DNA from: Planctomycetota bacterium
GTDB lineage: Bacteria; Planctomycetota; Phycisphaerae; Phycisphaerales; SM1A02
Assembly: GCA_021414025.1 (NCBI GenBank)
Contig: JAIOPG010000002.1
Span: 124,001-188,000 of the forward strand
Reading direction: 5' to 3'
DNA: 64,000 nucleotides
Numbering within the stretch: the stretch's first letter is position 1; each line of letters starts with the position of its first letter. The notes below the pieces were generated by a model, which was not told the origin of the DNA, did no database searches, and saw only the letters and a program-made list of their open reading frames with translations. Shown here one piece after another: positions 35,598 through 40,285 of this stretch. The position numbers and the translations under genes are program-made.

Positions 35598-37141
35598 GGC
35601 TGCAAGCCCTTGGCTTTCCAGAGTCGCTCGATTTCGGAAAGCGTGGTCGGCGCCATGCGCGTTCCGCTGGGATCGTTGCGAAGGATCAGCCGGCCATGCT
35701 CGTCCACCTGGTCGGTGCTGACAGGACCATCCAGCGAGGTCTGCGTATCCAGCGTCCATTGCCCGGGATGGGAGTCATCCGCCTGCCACTTCAGAGTGCG
35801 CTGCGAAATCTTTCCCGAGCCCGGATCGAAGCACCACATCGAGTAGCGGCCGGCCGCCGTCGCATCCCTTGGCAGCAGCTCCGCCATCATGAAGCTCAGC
35901 GGATGGGGCAGGTAGGCGTTGTTGGGAACCGTCCAGCTTTCAGGCTCGGCCGTCGCTCCCACCGAGTTGGTCAGCACGGCAAGGTCGTTGCCCGCGGCGC
36001 CGTCGGCGCCGCGGAATCTCGCGCCGGTCTGCGAGAAAATATTCTTGGGGCCGGGGATCTGCGGAATGCTGCGCACCGACCAGACTTCGCTGCCCAGGTC
36101 CCAGGCGACCCAGTAGCGATTGCGCGAACTCGTCAGGGTCAGACCATCCTCGCCGATGCTGCGGCTGTCGATCGACAGCAGAAAACCCTGTTCTTTCGCG
36201 CTTTCCGAATAGGCCTTGGGATTCGCGGCGGGGTCGGCGCTGCCGCGCGGTGCGGCCGCGATTTCAATCGAGATCCAGGCCAGCTCCACGTCGCCCTCTG
36301 GCGTCTCGCGCCAGGAGCGGAAGAGCCGCTTCTTGCCATCGGCCAGCGACTTCAGCCGCGCTGGCGTGAGCGTCTTGATGACGTCGGCGCCGCGCTGCAG
36401 CCGGTCGCTGCGCTCCTTCTGCACCAGCGACATGTCGCGCAGCTCGATTGTGTTCACGGCGTGATCGATCGCGGATTCCGCGTAGGCGAAATCCTTTTCG
36501 GTGGTCAAGATGCTCAGCACGACGAACTGCCCGATGCCGGTCTGCAGGATGAACCATCCGCTGATGGCGCGGATGTCGCCGGTGGGAGTGGAGAGCCAGA
36601 AGAAGCGGGCCGGAAGACCGGCGACCGTGGTCGGTCGGTCCGCGAGCAGCGTGAACTCGCTTCCCGCCGTCTTGAGCGTCTGCAGGTGGTTCTTCATCTG
36701 CGATTCGGTGTTGCTCTGCGGGTCGTTGGAGACGACCGCCTGGATGCGGAAGAACCATCGCGCCGGATCGCGTTCATCGGAGACCATCCAGGAGATCGCG
36801 TTGTTCACCGAGTCCTTGGCGACCATGGTTCCCTTGGGCAGTTTCATCTTCAGGCCCAGCGATTCAAAGTCGTAAGGGGTGGCTTCCATCACCACCGGCT
36901 CCAGTCCGGCTTGCGGCGCGATGGGTTGGAGGTGCTTGGAATCGTCTGTTGCGCCGGTTTTGGTCTTTGGTCCTGTTTTTTGCGATTCAGAACCGTTATT
37001 ATAAGACTTCGACGTGCTGCTCTGGCCTGATTTTTCCGAATTCCCGCCGCTTTGGCCCGAGGCATTCGCGCAAACCATGAAAAACACGACCGATGCGACC
37101 AGTACTTTCCAAGTCAATTGAAAATGGCGGAGGGAAATCAC
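35594..37141 (-). CDS. Hypothetical exported protein
   Basis: A 515-residue protein with a signal peptide (hydrophobic VLVASVVFFMVCANAS) followed by a Ser/Gly/Lys/Asn-rich low-complexity linker (about residues 30-65). Two mixed alpha/beta parts follow (LGLKMKLPKGTMVAKDS, then IEIAAAPRGSADPAAN onward). The first part resembles domains that start with Leu-Lys-Met-Lys-Leu-Pro and bind surface ligands, but no family is certain. Start chosen at GTG 37141 because the longer frame to 37342 crosses the ribosomal promoter and the start of rpsJ. Coupled to the lipoprotein at 35597. Confidence 0.6.
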   Translation of the reverse strand: MISLRHFQLTWKVLVASVVFFMVCANASGQSGGNSEKSGQSSTSKSYNNGSESQKTGPKTKTGATDDSKHLQPIAPQAGLEPVVMEATPYDFESLGLKMKLPKGTMVAKDSVNNAISWMVSDERDPARWFFRIQAVVSNDPQSNTESQMKNHLQTLKTAGSEFTLLADRPTTVAGLPARFFWLSTPTGDIRAISGWFILQTGIGQFVVLSILTTEKDFAYAESAIDHAVNTIELRDMSLVQKERSDRLQRGADVIKTLTPARLKSLADGKKRLFRSWRETPEGDVELAWISIEIAAAPRGSADPAANPKAYSESAKEQGFLLSIDSRSIGEDGLTLTSSRNRYWVAWDLGSEVWSVRSIPQIPGPKNIFSQTGARFRGADGAAGNDLAVLTNSVGATAEPESWTVPNNAYLPHPLSFMMAELLPRDATAAGRYSMWCFDPGSGKISQRTLKWQADDSHPGQWTLDTQTSLDGPVSTDQVDEHGRLILRNDPSGTRMAPTTLSEIERLWKAKGLQP

Positions 37142-37205
37142 GCTCGCAAGAGTACCCAAATCCGCGCCGGACTTCCCAAAATTGTCATGAATACCCCCCA
37201 ACGGC

Positions 37206-37233
37206 TTGACAGAAACGCACAATCGCCTACCTT
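37206..37233 (+). promoter_or_regulatory. Sigma-70-type promoter of the ribosomal protein operon
   Basis: TTGACA (37206-37211), a perfect -35 box, lies 16 bases before TACCTT (37228-37233). The predicted start is near 37240, leaving a leader of about 80 bases with a short GCACG/CGTGC stem before rpsJ. It is the best promoter in the window by sequence. Confidence 0.8.
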
Positions 37234-37319
37234 TGTCGATTCCCCATTTCCGCCGTTGCACGGCATCGAGTCGTGCGCGGAAAGAGGCGTTGGTTTCTGA
37301 ACGAAGGGCACGCACTGCA

Positions 37320-37628
37320 ATGACTGGCGGCAAGATTCGCATCCGGATGGAAGCGTACGATCACCAGGCTCTCGACGCCTCGGCGCGGGAGATCGTCGAT
37401 CACGCCAAGCGCACCGGCGCACGCGTCGCCGGTCCGGTGCCGCTGCCGACCCGCCGCGAGATCTACACGGTCAACCGCTCCCCGTTCATCGACAAGAAGA
37501 GCCGCGAACAGTTCGAAATTCGCACCCACAAGCGGATCATCGACATCACCGACGTCAACCCCCGCACCGTCGACGCGCTGAACCGCCTGGTGGTTCCCGC
37601 CGGCGTGTTCGTGAAGATCAAGGCCTAA
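37320..37628 (+). CDS. rpsJ: Ribosomal protein S10
   Basis: A 102-residue S10, the first gene of the operon and a 30S head protein. [18 protein letters not shown] at the start and the loop [20 protein letters not shown] are diagnostic. Start at ATG 37320 with GAAGGG upstream; an ATG at 37206 is in the promoter. S10 also serves as NusE in antitermination. Confidence 0.97.
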
Positions 37629-37641
37629 AGAAGAACCCACC

Positions 37642-38328
37642 ATGCCCATCGCAATCCTCGGAAAGAAAATTGGAATGACGCGCTGGTTCATGGAAGATGG
37701 CCGCAACATTCCCGTCACCGTGATCCAGGCCGGACCGTGCGTCGTCACCCAGGTGAAGACTGCGGAGTCCGATGGATATGCCGCGGTGCAGCTCGCCTTC
37801 GACGATGCCAAGCCCCGCGCCACCACGCAGCAGCTCATCGGTCACGACGCCAAGGCCGGATCGGTCCCCAAGCGCGTCCACCAGGAACTTCGCCTTGAGA
37901 AGGATGAAGAGGCCTCGGCGTACCAACTCGGCCAGGTTGTTTCCGTCGACACCTTCAGCGGATTGAAGTTTGTCGATGTCAGCGGCACCTCCAAGGGCAA
38001 GGGCTTCCAGGGCACCATGGTGCGCTGGAACTTCAAGGGCATCTGCGCCAGCCACGGCACCGAGCGCAAGCATCGTTCGCCCGGCAGCATCGGCGGCGGC
38101 GGAACCGATCGCGGCACCGGCCCCAAGCTCAAGAAGGGCAAGAAGATGTCCGGCCGCATGGGTGGCGAGCGCACCACCGTCCGCAGCCTCGACCTGATCT
38201 CGGTCGACACCGAAAAGAATTTGCTGGTCGTCAAGGGCGCGGTGCCCGGGGCGTCCAATGGATATTTGTTCATTCGCACCCCCAAGCGTCTATATAAGAC
38301 AAAGGCAGTACTTCAGGCGGCAAAATAA
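37642..38328 (+). CDS. rplC: Ribosomal protein L3
   Basis: A 228-residue L3, an early-assembly 50S protein. It has LGKKIGMTRWF at the N-terminus and the long loop GTERKHRSPGSIGGGGTDRG that reaches the peptidyl-transferase region, then KGAVPGASNGYLFI. Thirteen bases separate it from rpsJ, and 150 unusual bases follow before rplD. Confidence 0.97.
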   Translation: MPIAILGKKIGMTRWFMEDGRNIPVTVIQAGPCVVTQVKTAESDGYAAVQLAFDDAKPRATTQQLIGHDAKAGSVPKRVHQELRLEKDEEASAYQLGQVVSVDTFSGLKFVDVSGTSKGKGFQGTMVRWNFKGICASHGTERKHRSPGSIGGGGTDRGTGPKLKKGKKMSGRMGGERTTVRSLDLISVDTEKNLLVVKGAVPGASNGYLFIRTPKRLYKTKAVLQAAK

Positions 38329-38340
38329 CCGGCTGAAAGA

Positions 38341-38464
38341 TTGGGAAGGCCGTTACGGAACCGCCCAGTCGCGACAGTTTGCAGAACCCCAACCGAGTCG
38401 ATCCCTGCCAAGCCCAGAAGTAACGGGCCTTGGAGGGTAGGCGAGACGGCCTGATCAACAGGCC
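38341..38464 (+). promoter_or_regulatory. Structured leader between rplC and rplD
   Basis: In a 150-base gap where this operon is normally tight, the RNA can form a long bulged stem (38403-38415 with 38425-38437, 12 pairs, loop AGAAGTAAC) and a perfect 6-pair hairpin GGCCTG/CAGGCC (38448-38464) ending 14 bases before the rplD start. An outer TTGGG/CCCAA pair (38341/38392) is also possible. No T-run follows, so translational control is likelier than termination. L4 regulates the S10 operon in some bacteria, but there the site is at the operon start. Confidence 0.5.
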
Positions 38465-38478
38465 AAAAGGTAAGAACC

Positions 38479-39138
38479 ATGATTGAACTTCCAATCCTCG
38501 ATGGCAACGGCAAGAAAGTGGACGTCCTCAAGATCGATGAGGCCACGCTCGGCGGCGAAGTCCGCCCGGCTCTCCTGAAGCAGGCCTACGTCATCACCCA
38601 CGGCAATCAACGACAGGGTTCCGCTCGAACCAAGAGCCGCGGCAGCGTCGCGGGCTCCACACGAAAGCTCTACAAGCAAAAAGGCACGGGCAATGCCCGC
38701 GTCGGCGCCTCGCGCGTTCCGCACCGCAAGGGCGGCGGCGTGGCCTTCTCCAAGACCCGCACCCGCGAGGATTTCCGCACCTCGATGACCCGCAAGATGC
38801 GTCAGCTCGCCAATCGCAACGCGCTGCTGGCCAAACTGGTCGACAGCGAGGTGAAGTGCATGAAGGAGCTTTCCTTCGCCAAGCCGCGCACCAAGGACTT
38901 CGCCGCGCTGCTCAAGGCCTGCGGCGTCGATCGCACCTGCCTGGTCGCCGTCGACGGCACCAATCAGAACACCATCGCCAGCGCCCGCAATGTGGCGGGC
39001 GTCAGCGTGGTCCGCATCGAGCAGCTCACCGCGTTCGATCTGCTCAACCACCGTTTCCTGGTGGTGGACAAGGCCGCCCTGCAGTCGTTCATCGACGGCA
39101 CCGCCTTTCAAACCGCTGATTCCAAGGAGGCCGCGTAA
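38479..39138 (+). CDS. rplD: Ribosomal protein L4
   Basis: A 219-residue L4. It has NQRQGSARTKSRGSVAGSTRK and the long-loop motif KGTGNARVGASRVPHRKGGG that lines the exit tunnel. The start, preceded by AAAAGG, follows a structured gap. The stop overlaps rplW by one base (TAATG). Confidence 0.97.
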   Translation: MIELPILDGNGKKVDVLKIDEATLGGEVRPALLKQAYVITHGNQRQGSARTKSRGSVAGSTRKLYKQKGTGNARVGASRVPHRKGGGVAFSKTRTREDFRTSMTRKMRQLANRNALLAKLVDSEVKCMKELSFAKPRTKDFAALLKACGVDRTCLVAVDGTNQNTIASARNVAGVSVVRIEQLTAFDLLNHRFLVVDKAALQSFIDGTAFQTADSKEAA

Positions 39139-39416
39139 TGGAAGCCACACGAGTCATTCGCCGCCCGATCGTCACGGAAAAAGCCACCTTCGCCACCGGC
39201 AAGGCGAACCAGTACACCTTTGAGGTGGACGGCAAGGCCACCAAGGACGACATCAAGAAGGCCGTGAAGAAGATGTACAACGTCCGCGTGCTGGGGGTCA
39301 ACACCCAGATCCGCAAGGCCCGCGACCGCGCCATGAAGTTCGGCCTGGTCACCGGCAAGCTGACCAAGCGGGCGATCGTGAAAATTCATGCTGAGGACAA
39401 GATCGAGCTCTTCTGA
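39138..39416 (+). CDS. rplW: Ribosomal protein L23
   Basis: A 92-residue L23 at the tunnel exit, where signal recognition particle and trigger factor dock. VIRRPIVTEKATF, the beta-hairpin KANQYTFEVDGKATKDDIKK and VRVLGVNT are typical. It is followed by rplB after 14 bases. Confidence 0.96.
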   Translation: MEATRVIRRPIVTEKATFATGKANQYTFEVDGKATKDDIKKAVKKMYNVRVLGVNTQIRKARDRAMKFGLVTGKLTKRAIVKIHAEDKIELF

Positions 39417-39430
39417 GCAAAGGAATTCCA

Positions 39431-40285
39431 ATGGCGATTCGAGTCTATAAAAGAACATCGGCCGGACGGCGCAACGCGAGCGTGAACCTGCACACCGAGG
39501 TCACACGCTCCAAGCCCGAGAAGAGCCTCTGCCGTCCGCTCTCCAAGACCGGCGGCCGCAACTGCCAGGGCAAGCTCACCGTCATCCAGCAGGGCGGCGG
39601 CCACAAGCGCCGCTACCGGCTGATCGACTTCAAGCGCCGCAAGGATGACGTGGTCGCCACCGTGACCACCATCGAGTACGACCCCAACCGCTCCTGCCAC
39701 ATCGCGCTGCTCACCTACGCCGACGGCGACAAGCGCTACATCCTGGCCCCCAAGGGCATCACGGTCGGACAGAAGATTCTCTCCAGCCAGAAGCTGATCG
39801 ATCCCAACGTCGGCAACTGCATGCCGCTGAAGAACATTCCCGCCGGCCTCGACGTGCACTGCGTCGAGATGGTGCCGATGCGCGGCGGCGCCCTGGTGCG
39901 CTCCGCCGGCATGAGCGCCCGACTGACGAATAAGGAAGGCCGCATGGCGACCCTCGTGCTGCCCTCGGGTGAAATCCGCCAGGTGCTGCTTGAGTGCCGC
40001 GCCACCATCGGCGCCGTCGGCAACGCCGATCACGCCAATGTCGTGCTCGGAAAAGCCGGTCGCGCCCGCTGGCTCGGACGACGTCCGCGCACCCGCGGTG
40101 TGGCCATGAGCCATCACCAGCATCCGCACGGCGGTGGCGAAGGTCGCAGCAAGGGAGGCCAGGAGCCTTCCAACGCCAGCGGCACGCAAAGCAAGGGCGG
40201 ACGGACCCGTCGATACGGGCTGTCCAGCGATGACCTGATCATTCGTCGGCGCTTCAGCCGCCGTTACGGCCAATTGAAACTCTGA
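39431..40285 (+). CDS. rplB: Ribosomal protein L2
   Basis: A 284-residue L2 with KTGGRNCQGKLTVIQQGGGH at the N-terminal half and the conserved HPHGGGEGRSKGG near the C-terminus, where the functionally important His sits close to the peptidyl-transferase centre. Normal length for a bacterial L2. Confidence 0.98.
   Translation: MAIRVYKRTSAGRRNASVNLHTEVTRSKPEKSLCRPLSKTGGRNCQGKLTVIQQGGGHKRRYRLIDFKRRKDDVVATVTTIEYDPNRSCHIALLTYADGDKRYILAPKGITVGQKILSSQKLIDPNVGNCMPLKNIPAGLDVHCVEMVPMRGGALVRSAGMSARLTNKEGRMATLVLPSGEIRQVLLECRATIGAVGNADHANVVLGKAGRARWLGRRPRTRGVAMSHHQHPHGGGEGRSKGGQEPSNASGTQSKGGRTRRYGLSSDDLIIRRRFSRRYGQLKL

Follow-up and report, generated by a model that had tools for sequence, protein, structure and literature searches.

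A conserved structured RNA between rplC and rplD in a planctomycete order, and its probable role as an autogenous operator for ribosomal protein L4

In the window (the whole stretch of 64,000 nucleotides that was analysed), the genes for ribosomal proteins L3 (rplC, 37642–38328, plus strand) and L4 (rplD, 38479–39138, plus strand) are neighbours in the S10 operon and are separated by a gap of 150 nt (38329–38478), the coordinates of which had been given in the initial annotation and are borne out by the gene ends. The question raised by this locus is what such a gap does in the middle of the operon. It had been proposed to hold a 12-pair bulged stem and a 6-pair hairpin before the rplD ribosome-binding site, and to act as a translational control element, perhaps a new L4 autoregulatory leader.

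A structured RNA in the rplC-rplD gap

Both of these structures are found in the minimum-free-energy fold of the gap, just 5' of the AAGG ribosome-binding site: the bulged stem, here P2, at 38403–38437 and the hairpin, here P3, at 38448–38464 (all parts of the element are on the plus strand). P3 is variable, and was absent by eye in loci L037, L038 and L039. Beyond the earlier description, the gap contains a strongly covarying upstream hairpin, P1 (38339–38370), and two nearly invariant strands, ACCGAGUC (38392–38399) and GGCGA (38440–38444), the GGC of the latter (38440–38442) being the partner of the GUC in the former. P1 consists of a lower stem, GAUUGGG/CCCAGUC (38339–38345 with 38364–38370), and of inner features, namely AAGG (38346–38349), an apical CCG/CGG, an AA bulge (38359–38360) and CC (38361–38362). 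It is followed by a GCGACA linker (38371–38376), the ACA of which is identical in 59/59 rows of alignment A6. The Shine-Dalgarno sequence of rplD, AAGG(U), lies at 38467–38471 (AAGG at 38467–38470). No terminator-like site was seen in 38200–38600. A promoter in the gap was considered and rejected, the only promoter-like match being on the opposite strand.

To see how widely the gap occurs, 61 genomes, that of the window included, were searched with the L3 protein, and a match was obtained in 57. Complete rplC-rplD gaps could be read in 55 of them (the contigs of L005 and L014 end inside the gap). The gap was 133–407 nt long in 54 of the 55, and the remaining one (L054) measured 38 nt and was without the CC(N)GAGUC motif. 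Among the 54 long gaps this motif was exact in 52 and present as a one-letter variant in L016 and L020, and (G/A)GC(G/A) was found 15–160 nt downstream of it in all 54. The gap and its structure are conserved in most of the order members examined. L054 (genome G053) and L264, which has no motif, are order members lacking the element; they are apparent losses and would be useful as natural controls. In L043, L046, L051 and L058, the P1 core (in an AAGUC form) begins with bases of the rplC stop codon UAA; there the 5' strand of P1 is inside the rplC coding sequence, so that a terminating ribosome would cover P1.

Covariation was analysed in three alignments. The seed alignment A3 comprised 13 sequences from the same family, outside the genus of the window, which were aligned with MAFFT without a covariance model, the structure being drawn from L017. 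Over 27 pairs, 92.6% of its cells were standard pairs and both-side changes numbered 44 against 11.9 in shuffles, while pairing fell to 35–47% when the partners were slid. Alignment A7 (94 rows, 93 distinct) was fitted to a covariance model and hence leans towards the structure; over the same number of pairs, 92.9% of cells were paired, against 68.8% in shuffles and 37–47% after sliding, and both-side changes were found in 25/27 pairs (11/12 within P1) and in 564 cells, against 167.4 in shuffles. The same picture was obtained with A6. The GUC/GGC helix was paired in 97.4, 99.4 and 99.6% of cells in the three alignments (the last value being that of A7); it is nearly invariant, its C-G pair being replaced by U-A in two rows, L214 and L215. 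Because covariation is seen in A3, A6 and A7 alike, P1, P2 and the GUC/GGC helix are real, and in most members examined the stretch immediately 5' of rplD contains a structured RNA that is conserved and covaries. An unconserved gap, or a lack of compensatory changes in relatives, had been named at the outset as the outcome that would count against the idea; what was found instead is a long gap in 54/55 cases and 564 cells against 167, and the idea survived.

These data bear on two explanations that do not involve a regulatory protein. The stems might be chance products of a long gap with no function, and the fold of the window gap taken alone is only modestly more stable than chance (z −1.51; 16/200 shuffles equally stable). 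Conservation and covariation span six families of the order (f1–f6), and the covariation refutes this explanation, to which we attach almost no credence. Alternatively, the element might be a site of mRNA processing or stability, such as a cleavage site for RNase III or RNase E or a protector of the rplC 3' end, that parts rpsJ-rplC from rplD and the genes after it. The position of P1 close behind the rplC stop codon, whose UAA even gives its first bases in the four loci mentioned above, is in keeping with this; the lack of a terminator-like site around the gap speaks against it, as does the fact that invariance is highest at junction or unpaired bases and in the strands next to them, not in the long stems. 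We regard a processing element as very unlikely.

Covariance models were then used to follow the element. Model R1, built from A3, recovered the window element, which was absent from its seed, with 68.2 bits (E 1e-12), and matched 31/42 non-training mRNA loci at E<=0.01. In the whole genome of the window its single significant hit was at the rplC-rplD junction; a second copy of the element was looked for with R1 and rejected, the next hit having an E value of 1.8. Model R2, built from 39 sequences, matched 59/63 mRNA loci at E<=0.01 (unmatched: L034, L036, L042 and L054), and 20/24 non-training loci, eight of the 24 having been found by the models themselves. At named rplD loci of GTDB contigs, R2 matched 77 of 80, with hits ending 28–151 nt before the rplD match; many of these loci come from the same assemblies as the training genomes, and the sets are not independent. 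The three misses were L264, without the motif, and L261 and L269, which have it. By title, 47 of the 80 contigs are Phycisphaer-; most of the others are labelled Planctomycetota, Planctomycetia or uncultured. R2 also matched L213, L214, L219 and L273, whose contigs bear the names Limnohabitans, Candidatus Kuenenia, Singulisphaera and Leptolyngbya; their rplD is 50–73% identical to that of the window, and these names look wrong. Scans of whole genomes with stricter filters gave lower counts, with R2 finding the element in 26/41 order genomes at E<=0.1 and R1 in 5/150 class genomes at E<=0.01. Gaps were read in 11 of the 15 genomes missed by the R2 scan. When R2 was run on the locus itself, seven of these matched, L034 and L036 matched weakly (E 0.033 and 0.013), and L042 and L054 did not match. 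Genome-wide scans with stricter filters undercount the element.

As a comparison, 45 rplD loci from outside the order were collected, 21 from the same class and 24 from elsewhere in the phylum. R2 matched 0/45 of them at E<=10. In 38/45 rplC is upstream of rplD, with gaps that range from an overlap to 189 nt. The bare pattern CC(N)GAGUC..GGC is not specific, as 2/45 of these loci (L083 and L119) have it in the 420 nt before rplD, and at neither of them did R2 give a match. Other arrangements were noted in this set: in L100, L106, L111, L113 and L119 (elsewhere in the phylum), rplD comes directly after rpsJ, without an intervening rplC. In L110 and L115 (genomes G247 and G266, from family f70 of another class), no rplC or rpsJ was found before rplD; the stretches upstream of rplD in these two share 70% identity over 228 nt (E 4e-18) and are possibly another, unrelated leader.

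A known RNA family was ruled out against Rfam 15. Over the window, one unrelated tRNA elsewhere and nothing else reached the gathering score; an E-value search of 37000–39500 gave four hits, all far below the gathering score; and 19 relatives gave no match at that score.

Likeness of the core to 23S rRNA

The sequence CCGAGUC, with which ACCGAGUC shares identity, occurs once in the 23S rRNA of the same genome, at nt 606, and at nt 634 in E. coli 23S rRNA. The core CCGA-GUC...GGC-GA of the element, with GUC paired to GGC, is identical in sequence and pairing to nt 606–623 of its own 23S rRNA (E. coli 634–651). In the Rfam structure of 23S rRNA, this place is formed by a hairpin GG-GAAA-CC preceded by AA, then GA, and then a GUC/GGC hairpin. 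The order in the mRNA is CC, GA, GUC, then P2 where the rRNA has its hairpin loop, then GGC and GA, with the same letters and the same pairing, the middle pair being U-G. In the Rfam consensus, the bases flanking this helix, just before GUC and just after GGC, are paired too; here they form an A-G mismatch. The match amounts to about 10 nt plus a 3-pair helix. In shuffled 23S sequences, CCGAGUC..GGCG was found in 65/3000 cases and CCGAGUC alone in 556/3000. R1 matched neither of two 23S loci.

In 24 genomes of the order with both sequences at hand, the mRNA had CC before (G/A)AGUC or U(G/A)AGUC, as read with a pattern that requires CC, and the rRNA had CC in 11 and GC in 13; therefore, outside GAGUC..GGC the likeness is not followed letter by letter. 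On the sequences compared, the difference would fit a CC that is held in the mRNA by the GG of the Shine-Dalgarno sequence. CGAGUC was present anywhere in the 23S segment in 52/56 cases and was read at the site itself in 50/56, and the rRNA motif is present also in genomes of other orders. In genus g40, the mRNA element of L063 (genome G133) has CCAAGUC, and so does the 23S rRNA of a congener, L146 (genome G298); the same G-to-A change is seen in element and rRNA within one genus, yet the 23S rRNA of G133 itself keeps CCGAGUC. No clear rRNA counterpart was seen for P1. The possibility that P1 is a second rRNA mimic (AAGG..AACC compared with AAGG-GAAA-CC) was dropped because P1 reads AAGU..AAAC in other families, a change that does not track their 23S rRNA, and a comparison of P1 with the L4 region of domain I, made by eye on the Rfam structure, gave no convincing match.

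Could the likeness be due to chance? The element would then be a riboswitch for a metabolite or ion, or a ligand-free structure that sets the ratio of rplC to rplD translation. An elaborate, partly invariant fold beside a Shine-Dalgarno sequence is typical of riboswitches too, the conserved, AA-bulged core of P1 has no rRNA counterpart, and CCGAGUC alone turns up in shuffled 23S rRNA as often as stated above. Against these points stand the lack of any Rfam family at gathering score, the single significant hit of R1 in its own genome at just this gene junction, and the fact that what is shared in the core extends beyond the letters to the pairing, U-G pair included. We consider this explanation unlikely.

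In 23S rRNA, the CC of CCGA pairs with an upstream AAGG, and in the mRNA an AAGG, that of the rplD Shine-Dalgarno sequence, lies downstream. This strand could replace the rRNA AAGG by pairing with CC (a helix here named P0), and the mimic would then be circularly permuted, since the AAGG strand is upstream in the one and downstream in the other. AGG is at the Shine-Dalgarno place in 56/58 loci examined; L224, L226, L229 and L231 have no GG at the expected place (the start of L231 may be misplaced). General covariation of the outer P0 pair was tested twice and gave no excess (44/56 standard against a shuffled mean of 42.1, and 43/70 against 40.2), so the anti-Shine-Dalgarno helix is not counted as supported by covariation and is kept only as something that we infer. 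In the five loci with U before CC, at least three of which look like close relatives, the outer pair was U-A in 5/5, and 9/5000 shuffles were as high. CC followed by U goes with AAGG in 8/9 cases, against 14/47 of the others, a comparison confounded by relatedness. The mean predicted probability of P0 was 0.18 and exceeded 0.5 in 6/56; when the three-way form with P0 was forced in the window, it lay 2.1 kcal/mol above the minimum. In two relatives that have no P3 (L037 and L039), the minimum-energy fold shows ACC/GGU, GA against GAAA, GUC/GGC and P2; the third (L038) folds otherwise.

A proposed operator for L4

Two of the features expected of a ribosomal protein leader are found here, namely a conserved, covarying RNA in a ribosomal protein mRNA and a consistent position upstream of rplD (at 77/80 named loci). 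Conservation and covariation support the translational control element that the initial annotation had suspected. Which protein would bind it is suggested by gene position and by the rRNA match. We propose that in this order the gap between rplC and rplD serves as an operator, inside the S10 operon, by which L4, the predicted ligand, controls its own translation, and put the probability of this reading at roughly 0.65. L4 would be the natural ligand because the adjoining gene is rplD. The segment of E. coli 23S rRNA from nt 626 to 651 is, as we take it, H31/H32, and L4 presumably crosslinks near U615. In a cryo-EM study of early 50S assembly, as far as its text was available to us, uL4 density appears together with domain II helices H27-31 (PMC9935924), and the L4 part of the earlier suggestion gains from this, since the core of the element matches a 23S site in the region seen to form when uL4 joins. 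What the element would share with L4's own rRNA site is the core letters and the GUC/GGC helix, the assignment of that site to L4 coming from this one paper.

The following course of events may be envisaged. The transcript would fold into P1 and then into a junction of CCGA-GUC and GGC-GA that copies 23S rRNA, with P2 replacing the rRNA hairpin loop. L4 in excess of free 23S rRNA would bind this rRNA-like fold, and bound L4 would lock the Shine-Dalgarno strand into it, blocking rplD. The block would extend through coupling to rplW and later genes; the stop codon of rplD overlaps the start codon of rplW (UAAUG, 39136–39140), which could carry repression to the genes that follow. Unlike in E. 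coli, rpsJ and rplC would be left unrepressed. Newly made 23S rRNA would compete L4 away. L4 as the ligand, the masking of the Shine-Dalgarno sequence, the repression and the coupling are all inferred steps, and the masking is held to be less probable than the operator as such because P0 shows no general covariation and has a low predicted probability. A bolder form of the proposal, for which we would offer somewhat less than even odds, is that this is a new RNA family made of a permuted copy of the domain II element AAGG/CCGA-GUC...GGC, kept across the order in mid-operon, in which the rplD Shine-Dalgarno sequence is a strand of the mimic; the step in which L4 organises domain II as the 50S subunit assembles would then be the same one that closes its own ribosome-binding site.

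The operator might instead be read by another ribosomal protein, such as L3, L23, the product of a later gene of the operon, or L15, a further neighbour of this part of domain II. An element between rplC and rplD would be readable by any product of the operon, and the rRNA match indicates a site in the rRNA, not which protein binds there. The element abuts the Shine-Dalgarno sequence of rplD itself, which argues for L4, and in the portions of PMC9935924 used here it is uL4 that appears with H27-31, whereas the appearance of uL23 is tied to helices of domain III, and uL3 has a part in domain VI. We consider another ligand unlikely.

Comparison with known L4 sites and other rRNA mimics

In E. 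coli, according to the parts of PMC10931766 and PMC7186457 drawn on here, L4 controls its operon at the level of both transcription and translation from a leader before rpsJ, and 23S rRNA competes with this operator through domain I; PMC10931766 reports the operator in a subset of gamma-proteobacteria and, in those parts, its absence in Pseudomonas. An L4 operator in the rplC-rplD gap would have in common with that leader the use of L4 as repressor of its own operon, competition by 23S rRNA and RNA mimicry. It would differ in position, being between rplC and rplD and not 5' of rpsJ; in the lack of any terminator-like site in the interval searched, where E. coli has a NusA-assisted terminator; and in the rRNA site, where E. 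coli uses domain I and the likeness here is to domain II. This last mismatch counts against L4 as the ligand.

The L4 r-leader candidate of Archaeoglobi (Eckert et al. 2020, PMC7247131) is likewise a proposed L4 leader from comparative genomics. It is archaeal, is listed as regulating rplC, rplD, rplW, rplB and more, and has a motif rating of '?' in the portions of that paper drawn on; it is set apart from the present element by description only. The operators of L1, S8, L20 and S15 are also mRNAs that copy features of the rRNA site of their protein, in the accounts given in passages of PMC10931766 and PMC7247131. Here, the protein and the site are others, the strand order would be permuted and the Shine-Dalgarno sequence would be a strand of the mimic. 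At the tnaC-tnaA spacer of E. coli, L4 acts at an intercistronic spacer and lowers translation of the next gene; that target is non-ribosomal, is bound with a Kd of 2.1 uM, and has no conserved structure as far as the passages of PMC7186457 consulted go. Planctomycet- and Phycisphaer- do not occur in the main text of PMC7247131, nor rplD in the main texts of PMC2864571 and PMC11109978. The element is new as far as Rfam 15 and the non-subscription literature searched go.

Taken together, the element looks like an independent solution to the control of L4, one that is found in a different phylum, sits elsewhere in the operon and apparently copies a different rRNA site. It raises the question of whether L4 can exert regulation through its contact with domain II, and whether a Shine-Dalgarno sequence can serve as a functional strand in a mimic of rRNA. 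For annotation, it adds a new RNA family in at least six families of one order.
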